Of a stretch of 64,000 bases of DNA, positions 13,501 through 64,000 are shown one piece after another. Made by a program: the position numbers and the translations under genes. Position 1 is the first letter of the stretch; each line of letters starts with the position of its first letter. The notes beneath the pieces were generated by a model that saw only the letters and a program-made list of their open reading frames with translations, was not told the origin of the DNA and searched no databases. Location: contig OZ024880.1 of NCBI GenBank assembly GCA_964017185.1, forward strand, positions 38,158,329 through 38,222,328, written 5' to 3'. This DNA is from Rugalucina vietnamica (Eukaryota > Mollusca > Bivalvia > Lucinida > Lucinidae).

Positions 13501-16500
13501 CTAATTCTGACACACCACAGTGTAAGCAACCATTTTCTTTCCGATGGCGGAGCACTGTTGCGGAGTGGTAGAGAGTCAGACCCACATGGAGGATAGGTTG
13601 GGGTACTTTGAACAAGATTCAATAACTCCCCATAGGCTGGTAAATATCCAAGAAGAATGGGCTGTGTCCCTACAGGACAGAAACTTTGTTGCCCTAGACA
13701 TCAAACAAGAATGCAAACAAACAAGTTAGAGTAGACTCATGTCAGATTTTCTGTAAGGAAAAATGAATGAAATAGCCATATTTTGGGGGGAAACATGTTG
13801 GTGTTGTGGTAGGGTACAGGACTTGGGAGCGAGAGGTCCTGGGTTCAAGACCTACCTCCATGGTGAAGTGTCCTTGAGCAAGACAGTAAGCTTCCCACAG
13901 TACTTACTGGTAGATAGGCAGGAAGCAGTGGGTCCAACACAAGATGACCAAAAAGTGATTGACTGGGACGTTCAGCCATAACCAAGCCAAACCAAACCTT
14001 ACAGGCTGGGAGGGTATAATGATAAAATTGATATATTTAGTATCTTAATGTTTTGTTAATTTTTTTTCTAGGAGCAGGCAACTGATACAGCTTCTAGTCC
14101 ACTCTACCACTGGAAGAAACGATCAACAAACATCTATCTAAACAAGTAAGAGCTTTTATGAAATAAGAAATTTATGGCAAGACAGTTTTGAAAATTCTAT
14201 GACTTGTTAAAATTACAGAGTTAAAAATGAGACAGTGCTGATATAGAATTAAAATGTCTGTGAAAACTTTCTGTTAATTAAATGTATCAAAGCCATGATT
14301 AAATTAAAAAATGAAAGTAAAAATAAGGTACATAATGGACCACAATTATTGAGAGTAAAAAGTTCAAATTATGTTTTGACCTTTCTTGGTATGCGAGGTG
14401 GACTAAATGTGCAAGACAGCCTGCAAATCTATTTAATCTGATCAGTGCCTTTATTATTCTCTACAAAAGAAGCATCAGTCATCTAGTTGCTGTGTACAGA
14501 TTACTAGTGCTCTCATCGTCTGAGCAGGTCATTTACCTGGTTTCAAACAAGACATTTTCTCAACATGAGGTTTGCTTGCCTTTGCAGGACCCTGAAGAAG
14601 TACCACAAGCGTACAGATGGCAAGAAGTCGGCACAGTCCATGTATCGCAAAACAGGAGACAATGAAAACAAGAATGAGTGGACCTGTGTGTCATGTGACC
14701 TGACATTTGATAATGCCAGTGTTCTCAATCTGCACACCCTCACACATGCTGCGGAGAATGTGGGACAGACGGACATGCCCAACTTCTTGACGCAAGCTGC
14801 AGAGAATGTCCTTCAGGATGAAATTAGGAAATTGACACTTCAGATAGGGACTGAGACATTTGGAGGTCCAAATCTAGGTCAAGGTCAAGATGGCCTCGGT
14901 TTGGGAACATCTCAGGAGACACACACGCTGGCCTGTCCCGTCTGCTCTGCACAGTTCACACAGATGTTGGCTCTTGTAGAACACGCTGCCGAGCATGGTA
15001 TTGCAAAAAAGCAGCCAAACTACCACCGTCCGTTCAAGTGCGATAAATGTTGGAAAGCTTTTACAACCCAGGAACGCCTCACCGCCCATTTTCTGTGTCA
15101 TGGTCCAGACGAGAATAAACAGTTTCCTTGTATGATCTGTGGCAAGAGATTCCTGAACAATTCTGCACGATCATGTCATCTCAAAACACATAGCTTACAT
15201 AAGTATTATGAATGCCCATTGTGTCGGATGGGATTTGATCATGCAGCAGCCATGCGGGAGCACAGTCAAGTCCATTTGAGCCCAGAGGGCTTGTTCAACT
15301 GTCCAAAGTGTGACAAAAAATTCTCTGAGTTCCTCGTATTGAAAAAACACATCCGCGGTTTTCATAACAGTGGACATTTTCAGTGTGATGTCTGTGAGAA
15401 AGTCTTCCCACGTGAGGACAAACTGCGTCTGCACAAGTTGAGTCACTCTTCAGTTCGGGAGTTTATGTGTGAGACCTGTGGCAGGCAGTTCAAACGTAAA
15501 GACAAGCTGAAGGATCACATCAAACGTCTGCATTCCGTGGAACGTCAGGTCAGAGACCTTGAGAGGTCACTGAAACCTCCACGTATCAAGTTCATACCGA
15601 AGGTGTCACCGACAGACTATCAAAGATTTATATATAAATGTCACTTGTGCTTGCTTGGATTTAAAAGGCGTGGAATGTTAGTGAATCATTTAGCAAACAA
15701 ACATCCAGGTGTTAAGATAGATTCTGTGCCAGAACTTAATCTCCCGATTCTGAAAACTCAGCGAGATTATTACTGTAAATACTGTGATAAAGTGTACAAG
15801 TCCAGCTCCAAACGTAAAGCTCATATTTTAAAGAACCACCCGGGAGCTGAACTGCCCCTGAGTGCTAGGAAGAAAATCCCTCCGGAAGAGACACTTGAGA
15901 ATGGGGACAACCCGACTTACTCCCAGACTGTCGGGAGTATCACGACTATGCCACACAACTGTGAGCATTGCCACAAGCAGTATGCCAGCAAGGCCAAGTT
16001 GATGCAACATCAGAGGAGAAAACATGTCGGTCTGGTTCCCCCAGCCCCAGAGAGGATTAAACGTGACAAGATTGACCTCAGTCAGTTGCAGCAGACGCAT
16101 GAAGCCACGGCTAATGTTATCCATGTTGTTGAAGCGTACAACACTGATGGTCAGGCAACAGAAGTTGCAGCAGGAGCTGATCTTCTCACACAGGCCATGA
16201 GCGAACTGACCCAGACTATACAGGAGTATAGACAGAATACCCCGGGGGCACCCGAACTCTACCAAGTCTCGGCACGACTGGCTGGTGGTCCCCCAACAAT
16301 GGTACAGATTCAGACTGGTAATGGCAGCCCGGGTTCTACCATAGAACTGACCTCTTTGTCTCAAGCCTTGTCCCAGTTCTCCCCAGGTCAAAGCCATATC
16401 CAGGTTGCGGTGTCGGGCACTGGGCAGCAGATCCAGATCCCAATAGTAACCCAGGCATTGCAGCAGTTCTCCCCGGGGCTCGGGCCCATACAGGTCTCAG

Positions 16501-16691
16501 TGGCGGGCAGTGGTCAGCCTATACAGATAGTTCCCAAACCAGACCCGGGGGCTACCGACCAGGCAGAGGGGGTCGAGTCCACGCCAGAGGGTGCAGGGGC
16601 AGTCACCACACAGGCTGTGAGCTATCAACCACTGAACCTGGTGTCTGGAACGTACATACCTAAGACATGGACTAATTATACATATAAATGA
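1394..16691 (+). CDS. PRDM10: PRDM10 orthologue, gene span (8 visible exons, N-terminus outside window)
   Basis: Spliced model 1394-1534, 2800-2912, 3415-3591, 4783-4855, 12718-12783, 13247-13413, 14072-14145, 14588-16691. All junctions are AG/GT and all phases agree, giving 970 codons plus stop after a 2-nt partial codon. Order of parts: a Cys/His-rich motif before the PR domain, the PR/SET domain, an isolated C2H2 finger, a basic linker, eleven more C2H2 fingers and a Q/T/G-rich tail. Known of the family: PRDM10 is a nuclear, sequence-specific transcription regulator whose PR domain is usually regarded as lacking strong methyltransferase activity. The assignment rests on the PR-domain core NWMMFVR...EQNLV.YQYG and on near-identical stretches between fingers such as KRKAHILKNHPGAELP. 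The last visible upstream exon starts in phase, so at least one more 5' exon exists outside the window. Its introns are full of MITEs and duplicated exon edges. Confidence 0.9.
1572..2150 (+). repeat. Tandem copies of PRDM10 exon 3' end plus splice donor
   Basis: The last ~79 bp of the exon at 1394-1534 plus GTAAGT recur at about 1572-1656, 1659-1740 and 1744-1825, and more diverged at 2077-2150. Donor-like GTAAGT sites lie at 1651, 1735 and 2145; copy four reads GTAATT. The copies are not coding: two read TCATGAGCA where the exon reads TCACGAGCA, creating a stop, and one has a 1-bp deletion. The first three donors are spaced 116 and 84 bp, so using a later donor would also break the frame. 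The flank after the fifth copy resembles the flank after the real exon, as if the array had expanded inside an originally duplicated block. Confidence 0.85.
1862..2037. mobile_element. Hairpin MITE (CAGATTAATGCAACATCAC ends)
   Basis: The inverted terminal arms CAGATTAATGCAACATCAC (left) and GTGATGTTGCATCAATCTG (right) enclose a second inverted pair, TTGCAACAACCAAC / GTTGGTTGTTGCCAA. The element is ~176 bp with no coding capacity. It separates the fourth and fifth copies of the PRDM10 exon-edge repeat, so it inserted into that array after amplification. Confidence 0.6.
2461..2597. mobile_element. Short palindromic MITE (CACAGGCGCTTGAAG ends)
   Basis: A 137-bp segment with ~19-bp inverted ends ACAGGCGCTTGAAGTTAT and ATAACTTCAAGCGCCTGT. 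The interior is also partly palindromic (AGTGTCTACATAGCAATAC against GTATTGCTGCGTAGACGCT). It is non-coding and lies in a PRDM10 intron. Confidence 0.6.
2623..2788 (+). mobile_element. GAGCC MITE abutting a PRDM10 acceptor
   Basis: A shortened copy that lost most of the central hairpin (GAGCGAACACAAAGGCTGC remains). Its right end (GGTTTTCTGATGTGGCGGCT) stops 11 bp before the acceptor of exon 2800-2912. Confidence 0.75.
2800..2912 (+). CDS. PRDM10: PRDM10 exon: start of the PR/SET domain
   Basis: The acceptor is TTATTTCAG and the donor is GTATGT. It enters with 2 nt and leaves in phase 0. It encodes LGVFAKRPISKFTQFGPF, the opening GVF.KR.I.K.TQFGP of the PRDM10 PR domain, and ends in NSGMPIM. 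A GAGCC-type MITE ends only ~12 bp before the exon, so the branch-point and pyrimidine region of this acceptor lies largely within transposon sequence. Confidence 0.85.
3177..3392. mobile_element. MITE with GGCCCAGTTGTTCAAA-type ends
   Basis: Inverted ends GGCCCAGTTGTTTAAAA and TTTTGAACAACTGGACC enclose A/T-rich sequence. A second copy with the same interior lies at 36520-36755. It ends 22 bp upstream of the PRDM10 exon at 3415. No ORF. Confidence 0.7.
3415..3591 (+). CDS. PRDM10: PRDM10 exon: PR/SET domain core
   Basis: Phase-0 exon of 59 codons between CTCTAG and GTATTA. It carries the family-diagnostic core NWMMFVRNATNFAEQNLVMY, then QYGQEIYFSV and a GELK ending. Canonical SET-domain catalytic NH..P-type residues are not seen, in keeping with the divergent PR subfamily. 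A partial second copy of the 3' half follows 58 bp downstream. Confidence 0.92.
3649..3730 (+). pseudogene. Partial pseudo-exon copy of the PRDM10 PR-domain exon
   Basis: The segment repeats the 3' half of the exon at 3415-3591. It contains GTCATGTATCAGTATGGTC, GAGAT.TA.TTCTCGGTTA and CCAATAGAACTT, ending in the same GAGGTATTAT.G junction as the real donor. It lacks the middle of the source (a gap between ACCAACT and GTCATG) and the last codons before the donor. There is no good acceptor in front of it, so it is a dead fragment. Confidence 0.8.
3834..4067 (+). mobile_element. GAGCC MITE, near-complete reference copy
   Basis: 234 bp. The ends are GAGCCGCCTCATGGGAAAAC and the inverse ...CCCACGAGGCGGCTC. 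The central perfect palindrome is GCTTCGCGGTAACCGCGAAGC flanked by CTGATCAG arms. The flanks on both sides are ATAT, consistent with a 4-bp target duplication. Confidence 0.85.
4127..4361 (+). mobile_element. GAGCC MITE
   Basis: Opposite internal orientation to the copy at 3834 (long arm first). Flanked by CAAT on both sides. Confidence 0.8.
4519..4752 (+). mobile_element. GAGCC MITE upstream of a PRDM10 acceptor
   Basis: The left end is intact (GAGCCGCGACGCGAGAAAAC) and the right end mutated (ACGCTGCT). Flanks are TTAAAT and TAAAT. It ends ~31 bp before exon 4783-4855. Confidence 0.8.
4783..4855 (+). CDS. PRDM10: PRDM10 exon: end of the PR/SET domain
   Basis: It opens with VWYANHYADRHN, matching the VWYA..YA ending of the PRDM10 PR domain. 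The acceptor is TTGCCTTCAG and the donor is GTAAGT. It leaves 1 nt (A), which combines with the next exon's TT to give Ile. A GAGCC MITE ends ~31 bp upstream. A 7.9-kb intron follows. Confidence 0.88.
6945..7185 (+). mobile_element. tRNA-derived SINE, sense copy
   Basis: A degenerate tRNA-like head with the B-box-like GGTTCAAGCCC (about 7009) is followed by the body AAGCCAAGTTCTGCTTGCGG and GGTGGTTTTTCTCGGGG. It ends near GGGATGTAACACCGAAT. The A box is poorly preserved. Confidence 0.65.
7490..8340 (+). repeat. Minisatellite, 55-bp units
   Basis: CACTAGCGCTGG recurs at 7701, 7756, 7811 and 7866, an exact 55-bp period. Units read GGATCTACCAGCCTCGTCTC...CTAGCAGCACGCACTAGCG. A second subtype with CACTAGCCGCTGGATC and CTAGATCACCAACAGC fills 7920-8270. 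The short open frames across it are by-products of the repeat. Confidence 0.85.
8341..10581. other. No gene seen; intronic A/T-rich sequence
   Basis: This is the rest of the 5.1-kb interior of the composite repeat. It holds short motifs such as a GTAAGTAAGTAAGTAA run near 9549, an AAACAAACAAACAAA run near 10155, and a possible SINE remnant near 9440-9530. No exon of PRDM10 or other coding signal was found. Confidence 0.4.
12718..12783 (+). CDS. PRDM10: PRDM10 exon: first half of the post-PR zinc finger
   Basis: The acceptor is ATATTTCAG and the donor is GTAAGT. Entry is 2 nt and exit 1 nt. It encodes LEETEFKFHCFECSKKFRTA, the Cys pair of a C2H2 finger; the His pair lies on the next exon (LQKHLFEHD). 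PRDM10 has a single finger in this place between the PR domain and the main finger block. Confidence 0.88.
   Translation, partial: FWRRQSSSSIVLNVPRSSEQL
13078..13246 (+). repeat. Duplicated acceptor side of the PRDM10 finger exon
   Basis: The 61 bp spanning TATGTCACCTTGATGTCATT, the TTTATAG acceptor and the first ~29 bp of the exon occurs at 13137-13197 and again as the functional copy at 13216-13276, a 78-bp period. A poorer third copy (CTAGAAGCATCTTTTAGAGC) starts near 13084. The upstream acceptor (AG at 13167-13168) is intact. Using it would add exactly 26 stop-free codons in frame, duplicating the HLFEHD zinc-ligand segment. Confidence 0.85.
13247..13413 (+). CDS. PRDM10: PRDM10 exon: His pair of the finger and basic linker
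   Basis: It starts CT CTC CAG, completing an Ala codon with the G from 12783. It encodes LQKHLFEHDEETGSSK followed by a Lys/Arg-rich stretch ending RKKYLAARKLK. It leaves in phase 0 at GTATTA. A duplicate upstream acceptor 78 bp away makes the exact start less certain. I chose the downstream one because it gives the C2H2 finger its normal spacing without extra residues. Confidence 0.82.
13790..13998 (+). mobile_element. Second SINE-like repeat with tRNA-like head
   Basis: GTTGTGGTAGGGTACAGGAC resembles an A-box region and GGTTCAAGACC (about 13842) resembles a B box. Then come a unique body and the line GTGATTGACTGGGACGTTCA, ending in AACCAAGCCAAACCAAACC. Another repeat on the minus strand (41505-41672) shares the TTGACTGGGAC part and similar head order, so both may belong to one SINE superfamily. 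Confidence 0.5.
14072..14145 (+). CDS. PRDM10: PRDM10 exon: short linker
   Basis: It lies between TTTTCTAG and GTAAGAG and encodes EQATDTASSPLYHWKKRSTN and IYLN. It exits with 2 nt (AA), which join the G at 14588 to give Lys. Both phases fit, and the basic composition continues into the next exon (KTLKKYHKRTDGKK). Confidence 0.8.
14588..16691 (+). CDS. PRDM10: PRDM10 terminal exon: zinc-finger block and tail
   Basis: A 2.1-kb coding exon of 700 codons ending in TGA at 16689-16691. The open frame extends to an ATG at 14565, but that part precedes the TTTGCAG acceptor and is intronic. It encodes eleven C2H2 fingers, starting at WTCVSC, LACPVC, FKCDKC, FPCMIC, YECPLC, FNCPKC, FQCDVC, FMCETC, YKCHLC, YYCKYC and HNCEHC. 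The last three include a long DYYCKYCDKVYKSSSKRKAH block strongly conserved in PRDM10. The C-terminal third is rich in Gln, Thr and Gly, contains DLLTQAMSELTQTIQEY (also found in vertebrate PRDM10), and carries two internal copies of the motif LSQFSPGQSHIQVAVSGTGQ / LQQFSPGLGPIQVSVAGSGQ. That internal duplication may be lineage-specific. Confidence 0.95.
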
Positions 16692-27535: not shown

Positions 27536-29679
27536 ACCAGAGGACCATTGGTCCTGAGAACGCTCACCTGAAGCCTGATCTTGGAGTATTAAGTCATAAT
27601 GAAATGACATTGACCTTGAATACTCACACACCTTTATTGACTTCATAAGTTGTCTGCATCTGCAAAGTTTCAGGTCTCAGGCTGCAATAGTTTCCAAACC
27701 CAGTGATTTCTGAGAAAACCATAATTTTAATTTTGATATTTAAATGACCTTGGGCCAAGGTCAAGACATGACCTTGGCCTTCATTAATTACTTACCTTTA
27801 TTGACTCCATTAGTTGTCTGCATCTAGCAACTTTCAGGTCTCAGGCTGCAACAGTTTGTTTTCGCCTTTTCCCATGTGAAAGCCTATGTTTCCAAAATTG
27901 ACCTTGCTGTAAAATAGGTCAAGGTCATCATAGGGTCATCATTTCAACAAATTATGATGGGCTGGAGTTCCAAATGCTACATACCAAGTTTCATGAAAAT
28001 TGGACTGCCGGTTCTGGAGAAGAAGATTTTTGAAAGGTTTTTACCATATATGGGCGTGGCGGCCATCTTGGTCATGTGACCTGGATTTCGCGATCAAACT
28101 TTTGTCTCCCCTACCCATGGATGCTCCACATAAAATTTCACTTTGATTTGCCTAGCAGTTTCAGAGAAGAAGATCTTTAAAAAGTGTGTATGGACAACAG
28201 ACTGGCCAAGGTCAAGACATAACCTTGACCTATATTAATCACATACCTTCATCTACTCCATTAGTTGTTTGCATCTACCACTTTTCAGGCCTCAGGCTGC
28301 AATAGTTTTCAAAAAATCCATAGTTTTCACTTCTTCCTATGTAAAAGCCTATGTTTCCAAATTTGACCTTGCCGTAAAATAGGTCAAGGTCATCCAAGGG
28401 TCATCATTTTATCAAACTATGATGGGCTGAAGTCTCCGATGCTACATACCAAGTTTCGTGGAAATCGGCCCACCGGTTCTGGAGAAGAAGATTTTTGAAG
28501 GGTTTTTACCATATATGGGCGTGGCAGCCATCTTGGTCATGTGACCTGGATTTCGCGATCAAACTTTCGTCTCCCCTACCCCTTGGATGCTCCACATAAA
28601 ATTTCACTTTGATTGGCCACGCAGTTTCAGAGAAGAAGATCTTTAAAAAGTGTGTATGGACAACAGACTGGCCAAGGTCAAGAGATGACCTTGACCTATA
28701 TTAATCATATACCTTCATCTACTCCATTAGTTGTTTGCATCTACAACTTTTCAGGCCTCAGGCTGCAACAGTTTTCAAAAAATCCATAGTTTTCACTTTT
28801 TCCTATGTAAAAGCCTATGTTTCCAAATTTGACCTTGCCGTAAAATAGGTCAAGGTCATCCAATGGTCATCATTTTATCAAACTATGATGGGCTGAGATC
28901 CTTGATGCTACATACCAAGTTTCATGGAAATCGGCCCACCGGTTCTGGAGAAGAAGATTTTTGAGTGGTTTTTACCATATATGGGCGTGGCGGCCATCTT
29001 GGTCATGTGACCTGGATTTCGCGATCAAACTTTCGTCTCCTTTACCCATGGATGCTCCACATAAAATTTCACTTTGATTGGCCAAGCAGTTTCAGAGAAG
29101 AAGATCTTTGAAAAGTGTGTATGGACAACAGACTGGCTAAGGTCAAGAGATGACCTTGACCTAAATTAATCACATACCTTCATCTACTCCATTAGTTGTT
29201 TGCATCTACCACTTTTCAGGCCTCAGGCTGCAATAGTTTTCAAAAAATCCATAGTTTTCACTTTTTCCTATGTAAAAGCCTATGTTTCCAAATTTGACCT
29301 TGCCGTAAAATAGGTCAGGGTCATCCAAGGGTCATCATTTTATCAAACTATGATGGGCTGAAGTCCCCAATGCTACATACCAAGTTTCGTGGAAATCGGC
29401 CCACCGGATCTGGAGAAGAAGATTTTTGAAGGGTTTTTACCATATATGGGCGTGGCGGCCATCTTGGTCATGTGACCTGGATTTCGCGATCAAACTTGAA
29501 ATGCCACTACCCAAGGAGGCTCCACATAAAATTTCAACTAGATCGGCCAAGCGGTTTCAGAGAAGAAGATCTTTGAAATTGTGGACGACGGACGGACGAC
29601 GGACGACGGACGGACGGACGGACGCCGGATCATGGCCATCCTATAAGCTCACCTTGTGAGCCTTCGGCTCAGGTGAGCT
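27536..29679 (-). mobile_element. AGCTCACCTGAGCC tandem-core element, minus orientation
   Basis: It runs from ACCAGAGGACCATTGGTCCT to the terminal hairpin CTCACCTTGTGAGCCTTCGG and AGGTGAGCT, with a GACGGACGGAC microsatellite (29584-29623) beside the hairpin. At least three ~467-bp units are marked by GTGTGTATGGACAACAGACT at about 28181, 28650 and 29116. Each contains CAAGGTCAAG..ATGACCTTG. Confidence 0.8.
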
Positions 29680-32171: not shown

Positions 32172-35100
32172 GTAAGTATTAATGGTATTTTCAGAGATGC
32201 ATTTCCCCCATTTTCCATCCTACATATGAGCCTGTGCATGAGAAAACCAACAATTTGGGGTTCCGACCAGGTCTGACACAAACCGGGCTGTACAGTCACA
32301 GAAGCAGGCGAAGCTGATCTGTGTCTTTGTTTTCAAAATAAAGGTCTAAACATAATGCACCTTAATATACATTATCTTTATCCAAAACTGGATGAGCTAA
32401 AAATTCTCTTAAGCCAGAAAGCTGAAATTGACATAATCTGCTTATGTGAGACTTTTTTAAATGATGAATTTAGCAACAATGAACTACATCTAGAAAATTA
32501 CCAACTATTTCGCAAAGATAGGAATACAAATGGTGGTGGTTTAGTTATCTATGTAAGAGAATCATTAAGGGTTTCAGTGCGAGAGGACTTGCAGGTTGAA
32601 GGTGTTGAGTCAATGTGGCTTGAAATCAAGCATAAAGCACAAAAAACTTTCTTGTTAGGCTACACATATAGACCTCCATCATCAAATCAAAGTTGGATTG
32701 ATGACTTTGAAGGGATTTTGGAGCAAATCTATACTGAAAACAAGGAAATCATCATGCTTGGTGATTTCAGCTTAAATATGCTTGACAATAGCAATATTGT
32801 ACACAACTGGCTTCAGTTCACAGATTCTGTAAATCTTACTCAGATTGTTGATTCACCTACACGCGTAACAGCAACATCAGCAACCATGATTGACCATGCT
32901 TATACTAACAAGCCAGAAAATATTGTTGAGGTTTTTGTACCATGTTATGCCATTAGTGACCACTACCCTGTTTGTCTGACCCGCAAATTATCCAATAAAA
33001 GCAGTTCAGAATCAAAACACAAGACTATCACCTATAGAAGCATGAGCCATTTTGATGATCTTGCTTTTTTATCAGATCTAGAAGCACAACCATGGTCAAC
33101 ACTTGACATCTTTGACAATCCAAATGATGCCTTAGATTTCTTTCTGCAAATTTTTGAGAAAGTTCTAGATCAACACGCTCCTCAAAGGACTAGACGAGTA
33201 AAGCGTAAACTGCAACCTAACTGGTTTAATGCAGAAATAGCTGAAGCTGGAAAACAGCGTGACCATTTCCATAAACAAAAAGACACAGAAAACCACCGCT
33301 TCTGGAGAAATAAAACAAAAAGTCTCATCTCAAATTCTAAGAAACAAATCTTTACTAAAAACATACAAGAAAACAAAAGAAATCCCAAAAAGCTGTGGAA
33401 ACAACTTCATGAAATTTCAAATAAATCTAAATCACATACAACCCCCTCAGTTGTTAATCAGGAGGGTGAACCAATTTTGGATCCAGAACAGACAGCCAAC
33501 TCATTCAATGACTTTTTCACATCCATTTTTCAACAATATGGAAAAGAAAATACAGAAAACTGCTGCATCTCAGAAAAATTAAAAAATTTTGTCCAAAACA
33601 AGCTGCCACCAGAAGCAAACTTTGAAATCCCTCCAGTTTCTACATCCTTTGTGCAAAAGCAATTAGATGCCCTGGACCCCTCAAAAGCAACTGGACTTGA
33701 TGGCTTGAGTGCTAAATTCTTAAAGTTAGGTTCATCAGTGATAGCAACACCTGTAGCAAAAATTCTAAATCTCAGTATAGTAACGGGAATATGTCCAGAT
33801 AACTTCAAGAAAGCTAAGATCACCCCATGTTTTAAGAAGGGAGATAAATCTGATATGTCTAACTATAGACCAATCTCTGTCCTACCCTTGTTATCAAAAT
33901 TGATTGAAAAACATGTCGCTGAAAACCTAAAATCATATTTAAATAAATATGATCTGTTGTATGAGCGGCAGTCTGGATTCAGAGCCAATCATTCATGTGA
34001 GACCGCTCTTACTGCTATAGTTGATGACTGGCTTACAGCTATTGATAATGGTGAAATAGTTGGAACAGTACTGTTAGACCTGTCCAAAGCATTTGATCTT
34101 GTTAACCACAGATTACTACTTGAAAAACTGCAACAATATCAATTTAGTGCTGCTTCTCTTCAATGGTTTCAGTCATATTTTAATGAGAGATCACAACAAG
34201 TATCAATTTCAGGAAAACTGTCAGGCTCTAGAATCATATCTTCTGGAGTGCCACAAGGGTCTGTCTTGGGGCCTCTGCTTTTCTTAATCTATGTCAATGA
34301 TCTACCACTAGAAATAAAAAAGGCCATCATAGACAAATTTGCAGATGACACAACAGTAACCAAAACAGGCAGTTCCGTCGAGGAAGTGGTTGACGATCTG
34401 AATGAAGAGATGGAAAATGCTGTCAGCTGGTTCGACAAAAATCACATGTCTGTCAATAAAGGCAAAACTAAGGCATTCTTTGTTTCAACTGCTCAAAAAC
34501 AGTCCAGTATCAAAGAGAATAATCCTGATATAAAAACTGGCACAACAAAACTAGAAGTATCAAGTAAAGAAAAGCTACTTGGTGTCACAATTGACAACAC
34601 ATTAAATTGGTCATCTCAAGTGGATGCAACAATCAAGAAATGTAATTCTCTCCTGTTTTTACTTGGCCGGATCAAAATATATTTGGATATACCGACCAGG
34701 AAACTGTATTTCAATGCTTACATACTTCCACATCTTGAATATTGCAACTCTATTTGGGGAAACTGCAGCGATGAGCTTCTTGATAAACTCATCAAGTTTC
34801 AGAAAAGAGCTGCAAGGCTTATTCTTGACAAAGACCTTAGTACTCCTTCTTCAGAGCTCTTCCAGGAACTTAACTGGATGAGATTTGATGAAATGGTCAA
34901 ATACAAGAAATGCATAATAATGTACAAGTCTTTAAACAATCTTGCCCCAGCTTACATGTCTAATAAATTTACTTATTCCTATGACATCCACAATCTTGAG
35001 TTAAGATCAGCCACAAACCAATGCCTTTACATACCTAAACCTAAACTTGAAATCTACAGAAAATCTCTGTCTTACTCTGGACCTAAATTATGGAACACAC

Positions 35101-35887
35101 TCCCTGAAGCAGTGAGAAATTTAGGGTCATTCAAGAAATGACCCTAAGAGTTTGAGAAATTTAGGGTCATTCAAACATTCACACCAACTTTAGGGTCATT
35201 CAAACAGAGGTACCTTAGACTACAAATGAAACTGTCCACTAAATGATGTACATGTAGATAGAAAATTAATAGTAAATATTGACTTGTATATAGGCTATTG
35301 TGCATGTATTTGTATTGTTCATGTATTTTTATATAGTATAGTAGATTATCTCAGAATGATTATGCCATATTTTGAACTGTTTCACTTTCGAAATTAAAAT
35401 TCATCTTAAAGAACTTTCAACCCATACTTGTAATATTACTAATTCTCACAATCTAAAATAGCTAACATCTTTAGTATTTATACAGGTATTAATCTGAGAC
35501 TGTTTTTGGTATTTTAATATCTAAGATTATATTAACAGAGATTAATGTTCATATAGAGCAAACACTTTTACATTTATGAATAATCAAGAATGCAATTGTA
35601 CTTGTTAAATTTTATTGGCTGTTTAACCTTGTCTGTTTTCTAGCATGTATTAAGGCACTTAATATGAAGACTCAAATCAGAACCCTATCTCACCCAAATC
35701 AATGAACACAATATTATAATTGTAGTTTAGTTTATTTTTGTTTATTAACTCTGTGTGTATGTATATTTACAAATGTAGTACAACTTTGACATATTGTTGT
35801 AAATATTGTGTATAATAGCCATTATATTGAGGGCCTCAGGGAAGATTGGTATTGCCAACTGTGTTTAACCCTCGTTAAATAAAGACA

Positions 35888-44593: not shown

Positions 44594-44604
44594 TCGGATG
44601 AGAC

Positions 44605-45717
44605 TTGAATAATCTGAAAACTTGTCTCAGATTTCCTTGTCTCGGCCTCAACCCCATCATAGATTCTTTAAAACTTCTGGATTTGATAGAGTGGACCTTC
44701 AAAAGGGCATTAAAAAACTATGGTTCACTTTATTTGGCATGTAATGACAGAAAGGCTTTTTTCACTTCCTCTGACCAAAGTCGGTATACACTTTGGTCAT
44801 GTCAGAATGTGTGCGACGCCTTATCCTATCTCCTTGATAATATTTATATTAGATTTGGGACCAAGTTATACAGACAAATTGTTGGAATTCCGATGGGTAC
44901 AAATTGCGCACCTCTCGTAGCTGATTTATTTTTATACTGCTACGAAAGAGATTTCATGGATTCTCTTAACCATGATAATCAAGCTGATGTTATTGAGGCT
45001 TTTAATTCCACATCTAGGTACCTCGATGACCTTTTGAACATTGACAACCCTTATTTTGAAGGCATGGTCAATCAAATTTATCCACCTGAACTTCAGTTGA
45101 ACAAAGCTAATATCTCAGATACCGAAGCCCCCTTTTTAGATCTACATCTTTCTGTTTCAAATGGATTTGTTTCTTCTAAAATTTATGATAAGCGCGATGA
45201 CTTTGATTTTGATATAGTAAATTTTCCTTTTTTGGATGGTGACGTTCCTCGTCGTGCTTCTTATGGTGTATACATTTCGCAACTTATTAGGTTTGCTAGA
45301 GTCTGCAATCATGTTACAGACTTCAACGCTCGAAATAAATGTTTAACGGCAAAACTTCTCCAACAGGGCTATCGGTATCATAAACTTCGAAAAACCTTTT
45401 CTAAATTTTATCGTAGACACTATGAATTGATTTCCAAATATAGTGTTGGGTTAAAGACACTTTTAAGTGAGGGCCTTTCGGAACCTGAATTTTATGGTGA
45501 CTTGGTTTACAAATTAAAGAAACTTAAAGGAATAAATGATTTTTCTTTTCAGTTCGGAAAAATCATAACACGTTACAGACGTATAGGTTATAACTTGAAT
45601 GTTATGCGACAGTCTGCATGCTTAGTTTTTAACCCAATCATGGTTGATAACTATGCTGCCTTCTTTAATTGCACGCCGGTGGGTCGGGCGTCAGACTCTA
45701 TGATGGCCCCGACTTAA
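44605..45717 (+). CDS. Reverse transcriptase ORF, Penelope-like type, 5'-truncated
   Basis: 370 codons, open throughout. Visible motifs are YRQIVGIPMGTNCAPLVADL (RT motif 4 region), STSRYLDDLLNIDNPYF with the catalytic YLDD, APFLDLHLS, YDKRDDFDFDIVNFPFLDGD and YGVYISQLIRF. It ends NCTPVGRASDSMMAPT. The palm is complete but the fingers and N-terminal region are cut, so the copy cannot be autonomous. No GIY-YIG endonuclease was recognised downstream. The family assignment (Penelope-like rather than another non-LTR group) is from memory of motif style and is tentative. That it is a reverse transcriptase is certain. It was probably inserted into the MITE at 44401. Confidence 0.85.
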   Translation: MNNLKTCLRFPCLGLNPIIDSLKLLDLIEWTFKRALKNYGSLYLACNDRKAFFTSSDQSRYTLWSCQNVCDALSYLLDNIYIRFGTKLYRQIVGIPMGTNCAPLVADLFLYCYERDFMDSLNHDNQADVIEAFNSTSRYLDDLLNIDNPYFEGMVNQIYPPELQLNKANISDTEAPFLDLHLSVSNGFVSSKIYDKRDDFDFDIVNFPFLDGDVPRRASYGVYISQLIRFARVCNHVTDFNARNKCLTAKLLQQGYRYHKLRKTFSKFYRRHYELISKYSVGLKTLLSEGLSEPEFYGDLVYKLKKLKGINDFSFQFGKIITRYRRIGYNLNVMRQSACLVFNPIMVDNYAAFFNCTPVGRASDSMMAPT

Positions 45718-53431: not shown

Positions 53432-53641
53432 CTATTCCAATGAAGCTTGTACTGTATGAGTTGCAATCTTTGAGATATCAATCGTCCGTAAGGGTTTCGA
53501 TGTTGGCCGTAAAGTTTCCCGTACTCTCTGGAGTTTCTGCTCAGCACACATTGTCACTTGTCTGTTCAGTTCTGCCGCAGAATAGCCCAGTAACATTTTG
53601 AGATCACAAACAAACTTGTACACAAACCTCTTACCATGAAC
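53432..53641 (-). CDS. GABPA: GABPA terminal exon: ETS domain end and tail
   Basis: It starts after TGTTTGTAG with [20 protein letters not shown] and SAAELNRQV, the end of the ETS wing and the GABPA-specific helices that contact GABP-beta. A ~40-residue tail then runs to the TAA stop at 53434-53432. Confidence 0.92.
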   Translation of the reverse strand, partial: VHGKRFVYKFVCDLKMLLGYSAAELNRQVTMCAEQKLQRVRETLRPTSKPLRTIDISKIATHTVQASLE

Positions 53642-56600
53642 CTACAAACATAAACCATAGTGAACTTGTATGCAAGCTAGTGGACACAAGACATGCATTT
53701 GATTACGCCTTTTGTATTATTTCATTTGGTTTTGACCTTTCTCTTGCCCTTGGCAGTATAATATGACAAAAGGGAAACATGTATGGTTCCTCAATATAGC
53801 ATGAAAGGAAATAGTTACTGAATTGTTTGTCTTTTTTCTCTCAGCAAGCATGATTTTCCCCTGCTATCCCAATGTAATATGAAAAAATTTCCCTATCCCA
53901 ATCCTAACATTACTTTAGCAATCATATCCCCATCATAGTAATTTCAAAGTGCTCAACTCAGTTTCTCATAGTTCATAGTGGGTTTATTTTTCTGAGCAAC
54001 CTCCTGATTTTACCCTGCTATCCCAATCCAATATAACTTGCCCTCCTGATCTTTATCACTAACCTTAGCAATCTGAATCATATCATTTACCTTAGAAATC
54101 ATATCACTAACCTTAGAAATCATATCACTAACCTTAGCAATCATATCACTAACCTTAGCAATCATATCACTAACCTTAGCAATCATATCACTAACCTTAG
54201 CAATCATACCACTAACCTTAGCAATCATACCACTAACCTTAGCAATCATATCACTAACCTTAGCAATCATATCACTAACCTTAGCAATCATATCACTCAC
54301 CTTAGCAATCATATCACTAACCTTAGCAATCATATCACTAACCTTAGCAATCATATCACTAACCTTAGCAATCATATCACTAACCTTAGCAATCATACCA
54401 CTAACCTTAGCAATCATACCACTAACCTTAGCAATCATATCACTAACCTTAGCAATCATATCACTAACCTTAGCAATCATATCACTAACCTTAGCAATCA
54501 TATCACTAACCTTAGCAATCACAGTACCATCATAGTAATATCTTAGTGCTTGACTAAGTTTCACATAGTTCATAATGGGTTTGTTTTTCCTCTGTCCCTT
54601 CTCCCGATTTTCCCCAAGTTTCTAATACAAATCACCCTCCCAATCCAAACCTTAGCAATCATATCACTAACCTTAGCAATCATATCACTAACCTTGGCAA
54701 TCATATCACTAACCTTAGCAATCATATCACTAACCTTAGCAATCATATCACTTACCTTAGCAATCATATCACTAACCTTAGCAATCATATCACTAACCTT
54801 GGCAATCATATCACTTACCTTAGCAATCATACCACTAACCTTAGCAATCATACCACTAACCTTAGCAATCATACCACTAACCTTAGCAATCATATCACTA
54901 ACCTTAGCAATCATATCACTAACCTTAGCAATCATATCACTCACCTTAGCAATCATACCACTAACCTTAGCAATCACAGTACCATCATAGTAATATCTTA
55001 GTGCTTGACTAAGTTTCACATAGTTCATAATGGGTTTGTTTTTCCTCTGTCCCTTCTCCCGATTTTCCCCAAGTTTCTAATACAAATCACCCTCCCAATC
55101 CAAACCTTAGCAATCATATCACTAACCTTAGCAATCATATCACTAACCTTAGCAATCATATCACCATCGTAGTAATATCTAAGTGCTCGACTAAGTTTCT
55201 CATAGTTCATAGTGGGCTTATTTTTCCTCTGTCCCCACATCTGAGCGACCATCTCCGGGTTGTTGAGCTTGAACTCTCCCTCTTCCCCGATCCACTGGAT
55301 CACCTCCCGACAGTCCTTGTCTGTCAATAGTTCGAGGAGAAACTGCCACAGCTGGATCTGACCATTGTTACCTACAAAAACGGACATGATTAATAAGTTC
55401 TTTCATTTTGACTGGTCCACCACAAAATGACCTGTTGAGTCACAGAAGAAGGCTTGATGCTTGACATTTTGGATTTCAGAAAGAGAGGAAATGCCCTATC
55501 CTTGTTATAATAACGGCACTGATCAGCTTAAAGCACTATTTTACAAATAATCATTCTAAAACACTAGTAAATGTGACGACACCTGATAGGATGACATTAA
55601 AAGTTTGTAAAAGTATATGTTGCAATATCCAAGGAACCTACCCGTTCTATTGCCTGGTGAGAAGCCATGATCCCCAGTTATCCTGGGTGATCTGTTCTTA
55701 TTCTGTTTCCACTTCTTTCCGCCTGTCAAAACACAGTAAAACAGTTTTATCATTACAAACTTGTTTAAATAAATTTCATACTTTGACCTTAGACATACAA
55801 CATTATATCCTTTTACAGGCCATTAGTGTTTAATTATACCTTTTCACTCAGTCATTTACTGTTTAGTTTCCTAACCTCAATGTTCCTAGCCAATACTTAT
55901 GGCAGCAGTATACAAATCAAGTGACAATAGACAAGGAATTAATACAATATAAAAATCATCTCAACCCACACACCAGGTAGGAATCAACATAAGAATACAA
56001 GACATCAAATGAGCCTGTGTGTGAGAAAGCCAACAATTTGGGTTCCAACCAGGTCCGAAACAAACTGGGCTGTACAGTCACAGAAGATGGTTTGAGGCTG
56101 GAAATTTGGGATTTAGAAAGTAGAGGAATTGTACTATCCGTGTAATGAAAACAGCTTCGCAGTTACTGTGAAGCTGATCTGCGCCTTTGTTTTTGCATAT
56201 GCACATTGATGGTTTTCTCATGAGGTGGCTCAAATAATATAAGTCTTATGAAGAACACGATAACTAGCTCTTTCCCAAGTAAGGTGGCCATAAAAACGCC
56301 AAACCTAAAATCAAACATGGCCAGGACAAGAGTAGACAAATTGCAAATCATTCTTTTGTTGTTTTTTTTCTTGAAATTACATGTATGTGTTAAATTTGTG
56401 TTTATGTTTTTATCTCACGTCTTCTTCAATACTTGGACGCACTACAGACACAAGCTTTTGTTCCCGGTTCTTAAATAACAGGCTGTGATATGGTCATTAT
56501 ACTCTATTTTGAATAGTTTATTTTTTTTTTCATTTATTCTTTTTAATTTTTAAATTAAAATATGTATTTACCTGTACTTGCAACCCTGATTGTTGTGATG

Positions 56601-59600
56601 GCTTGTGGCATAGGCTGTTGCATCACAGCTGGAACACAACCGAAAATAATAATGTCAATTCAATATTTCACCATAAATTAACCAGAGGACCATTGGTCCT
56701 GAGAACGCTCACCTGAAGCCTGATCTTGGAGTATTAAGTCATCATGAAATGACCTTGACCTTGAATACTCACACACCTTTATTGACTTCACAAGTTGTCT
56801 GCATCTGCAAAGTTTCAGGTCTCAGGCTGCAATAGTTTCCAAACCCAGTGATTTCTGAGAAAACCATAATTTTAATTTTGATATTTAAATGACCTTGGGT
56901 CAAGGTAAAAAAAAGAAATGACATTGGCCTTCATTAATTACTTACCTTCATTGACTCCATTAGTTGTCTGCATCTAGCAACATTCAGGTCTCAGGCTGCA
57001 ACAGTTTCCAAAATATCCATTGTTTTCGCCTTTTCCCATGTAAAAGCCTATGTTTCCAAAATTGCCGTAAAATAGGTCAAGGTCATCCTAGGGTCATCAT
57101 TTCAACAAACTATGATGGGCTGGAGTCCTTAATGCTACATACCAAGTTTTGCGTAAATCGGCCAGCCGGTTCTGGAGAAGAAGATTTTTGAGTGGTTTTT
57201 ACCATAGTTGGACATGGTGGCCATCTTGGTCATGTGACCCGAATTTCGCGATCACATTTTCGTTACCCCTACCCATGGACACTCCACATAAAATTTCACT
57301 TTGATTGGCCAAGCAGTTTCAAAGAAGAAATTCTTTGAAAAGTGTGTATGGACGATAGACTGGCCAAGGTCAAGAGATGACCTTGACCTAAATTAATCAC
57401 ATACCTTCATCTACTCCATTAGTTGTTTGCAGGTCTCAGGCTGCAACAGTTTTCAAAAAATCCATAGTTTTCACTTTTCCCATGTAAAAGCCTATGTTTC
57501 CAAAATTGAAATTGCCGTAAAATAGGTCAAGGTCATCCTAGGGTCATCATTTGATCAACTTTGATGGGCTGGAGTCCCAAATGCCACATACCAAGTTTCA
57601 TGAAAATCGGCCTGCCGGTTCTGGAGAAGAAGATTTTTGAGTGGTTTTTACCATATATGGGCGTGGCGGCCATCTTGGTCATGTGACCTGGATTTCGCGA
57701 TCAAACTTTCGTCTCCCCTACCCATGGATGCTCCACATAAAATTTCACATTGATTGGCCAAGCAGTTTCAGAGAAGAAGATCTTTGAAAAGTGTGTATGG
57801 ACGACAGACAGGCAAAGATCAAGAGATGACCTTGACCTAAATTAATCACATACCTTCATCTACTCCATTGGTTGTTTGCATCTACCTCTTTTCAGGCCTC
57901 AGGCTGCAATAGTTTTCAAAAAATCCATAGTTTTCACTTTTTCCCATGTAAAAGCCTATGTTTCCAAAATTGACCTTGCCATAAAATAGGTCAAGGTCAT
58001 CCTACGGTCATCATTTGATCAAACTATGATGGGCTGGAGTCCCAAATGCTACATACCAAGTTTCATGAAAATTGGCCAGCCTGTTCTAGAGAAGAAGACT
58101 TTTGAGTGGTTTTTACCATATATGGGCGTGGCAGCCATCTTGGTCATGTGACCTGGATTTCGCGATCAAACTTTCGTCTCCCCTAACCATGGATGCTCCA
58201 AATAAAAGTTCACTTTGATTGGCCAAGCATTTTCAGAGAAGAAGATCTTTGAAAAGTGTGTATGGACGACAGACTGGCCAAGGTCAAGAGATGACCTTGA
58301 CCTAAATTAACCACATACCTTCATCTACTCCATTAGTTGTTTGCATCTACCACTTTTCAGGCTTCAGGCTGCAATAGTTTAAAAAAAAACAACATAGTTT
58401 TCACTTTTTCCCATGTAAAAGCCTATCTTTCCAAATTTGACCTTGCCGCAAAATAGGTCAAGGTCATCCAAGGATCATCATTTTATCAAACTATGATGGG
58501 CTGAAGTCCCCGATGCTACATACCAAGTTTCGTGGAAATAGGCCCACCGGTTCTGGAGAAGAAGATTTTTGAAGGGTTTTTACCATATATGGGCGTGGCG
58601 GCCATCTTGGTCATGTGACCTGGATTTCGCGATCAAACTTGAAATGCCACTACCCAAGGAGGCTCCACATAAAATTTCAATTAGATCGGCCAAGCGGTTT
58701 CAGAGAAGAAGATCTTTGAAATTGTGGACGACGGACGGACGCCGGACGCTGGATCATGGCCATCCTATAAGCTCACCTTGTGAGCCTTCGGCTCAGGTGA
58801 GCTAAAAATATACTCTGTGTTCTCATTAATTTTTGCAAGCAAGATTAAAGATTTAAAATTAAATGGACAAAAACATTTTATCATACAATTAGAATTTAAA
58901 AGACTCTGGCAGTGACCTGTTAAGCAATCATTCAATACCTGCTGAGGGGATTGTTTAGTGCATGCACTGCAGGTTAACCAGTGTTTTCTCTGTAGATGTT
59001 CAAAATTACAACTGAACATCATAAACTCAGCAAACTCATTTCTGGCTGCCCCCTGTGGCCAAGTGGTAAAAAACGCAGATACTTCATTACAGCGCTTAAC
59101 CACTCAATCATCTCATGATTGTGTTTGATGTGGGCTCAAGCCACATACAGGGCATGTGTAACACAAGCCACAGTTCTGCTTGCAGGTGTGCCAGGTGTTT
59201 TTTCTTGGGGTACTTCTGTCTTCACCCCACCTACTGATTGGCCTGTCTCATATGATTTGAAATAGGGACGTATAACTGAATCAGAAACAAGAGGACCATT
59301 GGTCCGGAGAACGCTCACCTGAAGCCTGATCTTGGAGTATTAAGTCATCATGAAATGACCTTGAATACTCACACACCTTTATTGACTTCATAAGTTGTCT
59401 GCATCTGCAAAGTTTCAGGTCTCAGGCTGCAATAGTTTCCAAACCCAGTGATTTCTGAGAAAACCATAATTTTAATTTTGATATTTAAATCAAGAAATGA
59501 CCTTGGCCTTCATTAATTACTTACTTTCATTGACTCCATTAGTTGTCTGCATCTAGCAACTTTCAGGTCTCAGGCTGCACCAGTTTCCAAAATATCCATT

Positions 59601-62600: not shown

Positions 62601-63863
62601 ATTTGGCCTGGCAGCTTCAGAGGAGAAGTCGTTTGAATATGTTGACGACGACGACAGACGCCGGCTCGACCACTATACTATAAGCTCACCTGTGAGCCTC
62701 CGGCTCAGGTGAGCTAAAAATCCATAATTTTCACTTTAACCCATGTAATAGCCTATGTTTACAAAATTGACCTTGCCGTAAAATAGGTCAAGGTCATGCT
62801 AGGGTCATCATTTGATCAAACTATGATGAGCTGTAGTCCCAAATGCTACATACCAAGTTTCGTGAAAATCGGCCTTCCGGTTCATGAGAAGAAGATTTTT
62901 GAGTGGTTTTTACCATATATGGGCGTGGTGGCCATCTTGGTCATGTGACCTGGATATTGCGATCAAACTTTCGTCACCCCTACCCATGGATGCTCCATAT
63001 AAAATTTCACTTTGATTAGCCAAGCGGTTTCAGAGGAGAAGATCTTCGAAAAGTGTGTATGGACGACAGACTGGCTAAGGTCAAGAGATGACCTTGACCT
63101 AAATTAATCACATACCTTCATCTACTCCATTAGTTGTTTTCATCTACCACTTTTCAGGCATCAGGCTGCAATAGTTTTCAAAAAATCCATAGTTTTCACT
63201 TTTTCCCATGTAAAAGCCTATGTTTGCAAATTTGACCTTGCCGTAAAATAGGTCAAGGTCATCCAAGGGTCATCATTTTATTAAACTATGATTGGTTGAA
63301 GTCCCCAATGCTACATACCAAGTTTCGTGGAAATCTGCCCACCGGTTCTGGAGAAGAAGATTTTTGAAGTGTTTTTACCATATATGGACGTGGCGGCCAT
63401 CTTGGTCATGTGACCCGGATCTCGCGATCAAACTTCAGTTCCCCCTACCTATGGATGCTCCACATAAAATTTCACTTTGATTGGCCAAGCGGTTTCAGAG
63501 AAGAAGATCTTTGAAATTGTGGACGACGGACGGACGGACGCCAGACGGACGGACGCCAGACGGACGGACGCCGGATCATGGCCATCCTATAAGCTCACTT
63601 TGTGAGCCTTCGGCTCAGGTGAGCTAAAAAAAATTCTGAGGGCAACTTACCCACAAACTTGCACTTGCGTAAGAGTTCTAAATGTGTCCAGAAAATGTCT
63701 CCTTTATCATTGGGAATGTAGTTAACAAACTGTGGATGAGAAAGTTCACACAACTGTTGTCCGTTCATACAAAACTTTGTCACATCAACATTCTCCAATC
63801 CAAATTCTTTCACCGCCCACTGTATCCAGTGACGTACATGTACCTCTGTCCACTGTATGGGAT
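53432..63863 (-). CDS. GABPA: GABPA-type ETS transcription factor, C-terminal gene span (5 exons)
   Basis: Exons in transcript order: 63863-63651, 56628-56572, 55722-55642, 55371-55148, 53641-53432. All have AG/GT borders, and the phases (1,1,1,0) agree. They give 260 residues plus stop; the 5' part is outside the window. The order is Pointed (SAM-like) domain, ~46-residue linker, ETS winged-helix domain, and a short C-terminal tail. The ETS block [32 protein letters not shown] and then [18 protein letters not shown] is typical of GABP-alpha (Ets97D in flies) rather than ETS1 or ELK. Known role: it binds GGAA sites as a heterodimer with GABP-beta and drives nuclear genes for mitochondria and other housekeeping functions. 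Introns carry AGCTCACC elements and an exon-junction array. Confidence 0.92.
54520..54575 (-). pseudogene. Pseudo-exon copy of the GABPA recognition helix (copy 2)
   Basis: It encodes [20 protein letters not shown] against [20 protein letters not shown] in the real exon. Glu and Arg of the recognition helix are changed to Val and Gln. Upstream sequence still resembles GQRKNKP (QRKNKPI). The same changes occur in the copy at 54976-55028, so these two copies are sisters. Confidence 0.85.
54976..55028 (-). pseudogene. Pseudo-exon copy of the GABPA recognition helix (copy 1)
   Basis: Identical at protein level to copy 2 and followed by a 16-unit array. No acceptor of exon quality precedes it; the open frame upstream stops within the spacer. 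Confidence 0.85.
55148..55371 (-). CDS. GABPA: GABPA exon: ETS domain including the recognition helix
   Basis: Helices 1-3 of the ETS domain: [37 protein letters not shown], and the DNA-recognition helix [18 protein letters not shown] with both GGAA-contacting arginines. The donor is AAG|GTTAGT at 55147-55142. Reading on past it gives VSDMIAK, because the junction itself is tandemly repeated in frame in the intron, so donor choice here is ambiguous by multiples of 21 bp. I use the first donor, which matches the family length (DGDMI.K joined to V.GKRFVYKF). Confidence 0.93.
55642..55722 (-). CDS. GABPA: GABPA exon: basic linker before the ETS domain
   Basis: 81 bp between TTTTGACAG and GTAGGT. 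It reads [20 protein letters not shown] then SPGNRT, and the last G starts the Gly of GNNGQ in the next exon. Lys/Arg-rich, as in the region N-terminal to the GABPA ETS domain. Confidence 0.85.
56011..56231 (+). mobile_element. GAGCC MITE in GABPA intron
   Basis: Flanked by AAAT on both sides. The second hairpin arm is intact and the first shortened (AATGAAAACAGCTTCGCAG). Confidence 0.78.
56572..56628 (-). CDS. GABPA: GABPA exon: Q/P linker
   Basis: A 57-bp exon. With the G from the previous exon it reads [19 protein letters not shown]. Splice sites are GTTCCAG and GTAAAT. It was found only because the phases on both sides fit; the linker is poorly conserved in the family. Confidence 0.8.
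56681..58803 (-). mobile_element. AGCTCACCTGAGCC tandem-core element in GABPA intron
   Basis: Complete in minus orientation from ACCAGAGGACCATTGGTCCT to the hairpin ending TCAGGTGAGCT (58803). It starts only 52 bp beyond the 57-bp linker exon. Three to four ~460-bp units (TGTGTATGGACGA near 57340, 57792 and 58255) and a short GACGGACGGAC microsatellite at 58727. Highly similar to 27536-29679. Confidence 0.82.
59045..59288 (+). mobile_element. tRNA-derived SINE, sense copy
   Basis: The head GCCCCCTGTGGCCAAGTGGT is tRNA-like and the B-box region GGGCTCAAGCC is near 59132. The body is the same as in other copies, with a tail CAGAAACAA that abuts the next element. Confidence 0.8.
60226..60475 (-). 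mobile_element. tRNA-derived SINE inserted in a tandem-core unit
   Basis: Antisense, with poly(T) at 60226-60238 and head CTTAACCACTCGGCCACGGGG. The surrounding unit continues across it (GGTTCTGGAGAAGATTTTT on one side, GGATTTCGCGATCAAAC on the other), although part of the unit is missing. Confidence 0.83.
60709..62715 (-). mobile_element. AGCTCACCTGAGCC element, nested inner copy
   Basis: It runs from CAAGAGGACCAATGGTCCTG to AGGTGAGCT (62715). The first half resembles the plus copy at 38680-40203 (CCCCAGGGGC..., ATGCATTGGTGACC); the second half resembles 22849-24340 (GGTTGCCATAGCAACC, CTTATCCG.ATCG). Hence it joins two core subtypes. Confidence 0.72.
63651..63863 (-). CDS. GABPA: GABPA exon: Pointed domain
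   Basis: The acceptor reads TATTCTAG and the donor GTAAGT on the minus strand. It encodes [20 protein letters not shown], then [12 protein letters not shown] and [12 protein letters not shown], the helix pattern of the ETS-family Pointed domain. It begins with 2 nt of a split codon and leaves 1 nt (G). Confidence 0.9.
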
Positions 63864-63875
63864 CTAGAATATGCA

Positions 63876-64000
63876 AGTAATACTTTTACTTAACCCAATT
63901 ACATGCCAACCTCATTATAACATTATCTTTGGGGTCCATGGAAACAGACTGTTATAAGTGAAACCATGTTATAGTGAGGTTGTCTACAACAGATATATAG
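63876..64000 (-). other. GABPA intron, right window edge
   Basis: Sequence upstream of the Pointed-domain exon on the minus strand; no exon seen. It contains TATAACATGGTTTCACTTATAACAGT-like AT-rich inverse motifs (ATAACATTATC / GTTATAAGTG), possibly a repeat end. Confidence 0.3.

Follow-up and report, generated by a model that had tools for sequence, protein, structure and literature searches.

What is a splice donor doing in 41 tandem copies, directly behind an exon that encodes part of a DNA-binding domain? The question is raised by a gene on the minus strand of the window analysed here (the whole stretch of DNA, 64,000 nucleotides in length), in which a 21-bp word spanning an exon-intron junction is repeated in three arrays. 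The answer favoured here, with a probability of about 0.75, is that the arrays are a nearly neutral minisatellite that arose at the 5' splice junction of the GABPA ETS exon.

The GABPA gene and its junction arrays

The gene is read as an orthologue of GABPA, a member of the ETS family, on the basis of its best structure match and its domains. The ETS exon contains a Pfam Ets match (E 1.6e-30), and its best match among solved structures is 1awc_A (GABP alpha), over residues 1-73 with E 3e-39 and 137.2 bits, against 110.0 bits for the runner-up structure. The terminal exon matches 1awc_A 71-109 (E 2.8e-13), taking up where the match of the ETS exon ends, and joining the two exons at the predicted junction produces a continuous C-terminus. 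A SAM/Pointed domain is encoded upstream on the same strand (Pfam SAM_PNT, E 8e-26). On the minus strand the order is therefore the Pointed stretch (63885-63598), an inferred exon (55722-55642), the ETS exon (55371-55148) and the terminal exon (53641-53432); the last intron is 1506 bp long and in phase 0. A Pfam search of the open stretch of the inferred exon gave no match. From ETS structures, we take the ETS exon to include the recognition helix and the exon end, with its splice junction, to fall in the wing. The parts of the gene are as follows, all on the minus strand.

63598..63885, minus strand: open stretch encoding the SAM/Pointed domain of GABPA (Pfam SAM_PNT); exon ends approximate
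55642..55722, minus strand: inferred GABPA exon, ending in SPGNRTG and directly preceding the ETS exon; flanked by TTTTGACAG before it and GTAGGT after it
55148..55371, minus strand: ETS exon, 224 nt, with a phase 0 end at ATGATTGCTAAG (Pfam Ets, 1awc_A; acceptor TTTTTGTAG)
55139..55147, minus strand: donor D1, GTTAGTGAT, the inferred working 5' splice site
53432..53641, minus strand: terminal exon, through to the stop, with a wing strand and the C-terminus (1awc_A 71-109; acceptor TTTGTAG)

Early-cleavage signals in the intron amount to one AATAAA (53988); ATTAAA is absent from the intron, and neither hexamer occurs in the 1 kb past the stop. Between the Pointed and ETS exons sits a tandem array of a 465-bp unit (56913-58721), and a similar unit forms a second, separate array at 27753-29578, each with about four copies. 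These two arrays carry the only other AAGGT(A/T/G)AGT sites of the window, at 27798 and 56948 on the minus strand. Elsewhere, a LINE-like open frame of 954 codons encodes an endonuclease and a reverse transcriptase domain (32277-35141), a 727-codon open frame encodes C2H2 zinc fingers (14508-16691), and a 55-bp tandem array extends over 7500-8279 (14 copies, 84% matches). A further open frame of 371 codons (44602-45717) has no Pfam match; it may resemble a Penelope-like reverse transcriptase.

Tandem Repeats Finder (TRF) places 21-bp arrays at 54076-54521, 54648-54976 and 55103-55164, and a walk along the minus strand resolves them into 3, 16 and 22 units. The unit, GATATGATTGCTAAGGTTAGT, covers the exon end (..ATGATTGCTAAG) together with the donor GTTAGT. 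The final 82 bp of the exon are also present as copies beside the arrays.

55100..55162, minus strand: array 1, 3 x 21 bp; unit 1 includes the exon end itself (TRF and walk)
54966..55047, minus strand: copy E1 of the exon's last 82 bp, 72/82 identical; its end overlaps unit 1 of array 2
54645..54980, minus strand: array 2, 16 x 21 bp (TRF and walk)
54511..54592, minus strand: copy E2, the same as E1 over all 82 bp; its end overlaps unit 1 of array 3
54058..54525, minus strand: array 3, 22 x 21 bp, with a 6-bp insertion in its last unit (TRF and walk)
53914..53995, minus strand: copy E3, 71/82 identical to the exon, beyond array 3 and with no array after it

An earlier note on this DNA had described 3, 16 and 22 units of a word over AAG/GTTAGT (the slash marks the junction) in the exon's own intron, with two or three degenerate copies of the recognition-helix segment interspersed. 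Both observations are borne out, the copies being three in number. Its statement that every unit carries the donor motif holds for AAG/GT, present in 41/41 units, but not for the fuller AAG/GT(A/T/G)AGT, present in 38/41; the donors comprise 34 GTTAGT, 2 GTGAGT, 2 GTAAGT, 2 GTTTGG and 1 GTAAAT. Spacing in multiples of 3, also claimed, is found within the arrays, including a 27-base step that the 6-bp insertion causes in the last unit of array 3, but both donor-to-donor steps between neighbouring arrays are of 140 bases, which is not a multiple of 3. Unit-like 21-mers (at most 5 mismatches) number 42 inside 53890-55200, all on the minus strand, and 0 outside it on either strand of the whole window; this confinement indicates that the array is not due to chance. 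A larger repeat block has a period of 455, and its copies are 98% alike.

The exon copies look decayed and would have no coding role. Relative to the exon, E1 and E2 each carry five amino-acid and four silent codon changes, among the former glutamine in place of the first arginine of the recognition helix. E3 has two amino-acid, five silent and two stop codon differences, TGA having replaced both recognition-helix arginine codons. It is these stops that speak against a coding role for E3, which its silent share alone would not do; its non-stop differences are in fact mostly silent (5/7), and this weighs against decay.

Reading frames and the choice of donor

The ETS exon was extended to each AG/GT from the exon end onward (43 sites, 41 of them in units) and then translated. 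By such direct extension, 3/41 unit donors are in frame and stop-free: those of array 1, after 55148 (D1, 0 extra bases), 55127 (D2, +21) and 55106 (D3, +42). Each of the remaining 38 is preceded by an in-frame stop (55027-55025) and falls out of phase, the extension leaving a remainder of 2 bases for the donors of array 2 and of 1 for those of array 3. Because of this stop and these remainders, the proposal that any unit's donor would give an in-frame ETS domain with n extra heptads is wrong for simple extension. Nor does an open frame prove much: among 20,000 shuffled units, 93% keep one sense frame or more open when placed in tandem. On the antisense side of the array, two frames out of three are likewise open.

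A narrow version of the isoform argument, in which either none or 7 residues are added, may still hold. In its limited form, D1 and D2, and rarely D3, would be used, and array 1 alone would add 0, 7 or 14 residues to the wing. We regard this as possible, though doubtful; it is compatible with a nearly neutral minisatellite and differs from it in that a second form would be made in useful amounts. The 9-mers of D1 and D2 are identical, and both donors are in frame and open. A precedent is provided by the IFI6 minisatellite, where, according to a 2015 paper that cites Turri et al. 1995 (PMC4526556), two repeat units farther downstream act as splice donors, so that three mRNA species can be formed. 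D3, however, is a poor donor, GTTTGG, without +4A and +6T, and D2 is predicted to be more paired than D1 in most folds of the transcript.

In the predicted fold of exon and intron together, the intronic half of D1 has a mean unpaired probability of 0.35, compared with 0.18 to 0.26 for 35/40 other unit donors (0.18 for D2). The five that are more open than D1 are 54945 (0.46), 54756 (0.46), 54301 (0.45), 54091 (0.56) and 54064 (0.38). When nascent transcripts of five lengths were folded, D1 was more open than D2 in four; in the shortest, D2 was the more open (0.49 vs 0.25 for D1). These models suggest a small accessibility edge for D1 that holds against most donors, though neither against each of them nor at all stages.

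With the sequence ATTGCTAA GG TTAGTGAT, the unit comes close to a palindrome, and a long hairpin is predicted for the array RNA, whose folding lies 6.9 standard deviations below that of dinucleotide shuffles. Compared with arrays built from shuffled units, the folding is ordinary: 69/400 are as low or lower for the sense RNA, 113/400 for the antisense RNA, and 127/400 and 148/400 for the two DNA strands. A special hairpin mechanism, whether for masking or for expansion, was therefore dropped.

It is improbable that the later donors act as decoys, competing for U1 and tuning the level of GABPA through messages whose translation ends at 55027-55025 and which are degraded. The frame test would suit such a role, as 38/41 unit donors lead to the premature stop and a phase shift. 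So would donor strength: 54945, 54819, 54756 and 54301 (GTGAGT or GTAAGT) are predicted to pair with U1 more strongly than D1 does (-10.3 to -10.4 vs -6.4 kcal/mol). Use of a decoy, however, would lengthen the exon from 224 nt to at least 406 nt, 35/40 non-D1 unit donors are predicted to be more paired than D1, though with pairing that is ordinary for repeats of such make-up, and donor positions are not clearly spared from change. In 40/41 units (all but the one bearing the 6-bp insertion), 10 changes fall on the 9 donor positions and 18 on the other 12, as raw counts in which many changes are shared by descent. Position +3 accounts for 5/10 of the donor changes, T to A in three units and T to G in two; four of these five strengthen the predicted U1 pairing, which goes from -6.4 kcal/mol to either -10.3 or -10.4, whereas the fifth, also with +5A, has -6.8 kcal/mol. 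The retention of AAG/GT in 41/41 units could be due to selection or to recent homogenisation.

For arrays 2 and 3 to be read in frame an extra acceptor is needed, and the candidates score poorly. It is accordingly very unlikely that E1 or E2, together with its array, is spliced in as a cassette exon bearing many heptads in frame. Entry would be at TTAG/AAACTT or at the AAG of a unit, where AAG/GT would be both acceptor and donor. From TTAG/AAACTT to the first array donor there are 111 nt, open and in phase 0, in both E1 and E2; each array stays open throughout its units when read from AAG/GTT; and splicing over 24-bp AGGT duplicates is described for fission yeast in PMC4974935. The TTAG acceptor nevertheless ranks 102/131 among the AGs scored in 55180-53600, at the 20th percentile of window AGs, and the unit AAG stands at the 43rd percentile, compared with the 89th, 94th and 97th for three acceptors of the gene. 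The score used was a crude pyrimidine-tract score of our own with assumed frequencies, which ties the terminal-exon acceptor with an AG at 53677. The cassette would also supply a second recognition helix, one that lacks the first arginine. A cassette exon from E1 or E2 was thus rejected as being in frame but with a weak acceptor.

Also very unlikely is a ladder of GABPA DNA-binding domains whose wings would differ in how many VSDMIAK heptads they contain, each AAG/GT acting as acceptor and donor, which the frame would allow through re-entry splicing but not through simple extension; if true, a fast-changing array length would alter the DNA-binding domain of a transcription factor.

A probable, nearly neutral minisatellite and its precedents

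Neutral slippage, which the earlier note had offered beside splice decoys and its isoform argument, fits best; the isoform argument does not stand as it was put. The nearly neutral minisatellite could have formed in steps. The sequence GTGAT(A), common to the exon end and the intron start 21 bp apart, would have permitted replication slippage, which would have duplicated the 21-bp junction word. A segment made of the exon tail and the intron start was then duplicated downstream; the copies are present in the sequence, and the order of events is conjectural. Arrays within the duplicated segments would have expanded, one to 16 units and one to 22, and a block with a period of 455 would have been copied recently. 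Splicing would meanwhile keep using the exon's own D1 and perhaps, to some extent, D2, which is identical to it; the protein would then have either no insertion or one of 7 residues (VSDMIAK), placed between K70 and V71 of 1awc_A. A donor of array 2 or 3 reached by simple extension would yield a truncated and probably decayed message. The arrays may persist because of their intronic position downstream of a working donor.

This reading is preferred because so few donors are in frame, the exon copies look decayed and donor positions are not clearly spared. It is also preferred because open frames come cheaply, the 455-bp block is 98% alike and tandem arrays are many in the window: 13 of at least 100 bp, the GABPA array included, cover 20% of its length, so repeat growth is usual here. 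The lower pairing of D1 relative to 35/40 other donors and the IFI6 precedent were counted in its favour as well. Counted against it are that D1 is not the strongest donor, four later ones pairing better with U1; that 5/40 unit donors, three of those four among them, are predicted to be more open than D1, as is D2 in the shortest nascent fold; and that AAG/GT is found in all 41 units. Little weight attaches to the 0 matches of the array pattern in viral_contigs and genome_contigs, neither of them an animal-genome collection, or to the 0 matches of six ETS-exon peptide patterns in viral_contigs, which is no animal collection either.

In IFI6 (6-16, G1P3) the repeat is located at an exon end, and its unit is shorter than 21 bp. 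The IFI6/6-16 minisatellite, as described in PMC4526556, is a published precedent for a kind of system of which the earlier note knew no described case. As in human IFI6 (Turri, Cuin and Porter 1995), a tandem unit in GABPA lies over an exon-intron junction with a donor in each copy. Unlike in IFI6, the unit is 21 bp long, the three arrays are parted by copies of the exon tail, and the gene encodes an ETS factor. In IFI6 the further donors are used in mRNA, whereas the likeness in GABPA is one of anatomy. The Turri work is cited in a yeast minisatellite paper for minisatellites that interfere with splicing (PMC3618361), and in an hTERT paper for intronic VNTRs that affect it (PMC2915984).

Many tandem copies of a short AG/GT segment are also a feature of AGGT tandem duplication as a route to the gain or change of introns (the Rogers model). 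PMC4974935 describes such genes in fission yeast, in which a 24-bp AGGT duplicate occurs several times and introns reach from one duplicate to another. There, however, the segment belongs to an exon and the intron extends over its copies, whereas in GABPA the word lies over a pre-existing junction. Ordinary intronic minisatellites share with the GABPA arrays homogeneous short units, recent block duplication and degenerate edges, but the GABPA array differs from them by including the last 12 bases of the exon and the inferred working donor. No donor array in GABPA appears among the titles listed (10 of 25 papers) in a literature search on GABPA that covered few subscription journals. The splice-donor minisatellite is therefore known already from IFI6, and the GABPA case would be a variant of it by anatomy.

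What the donor arrays would mean

If D1 alone is used, the locus would be a natural test of how one donor is chosen among about 40 near-identical ones within 1.5 kb, of which four later ones are predicted to be stronger. Should D2 serve as well, the case would resemble IFI6, and the DNA-binding wing of a transcription factor would be subject to editing by a repeat that changes fast.
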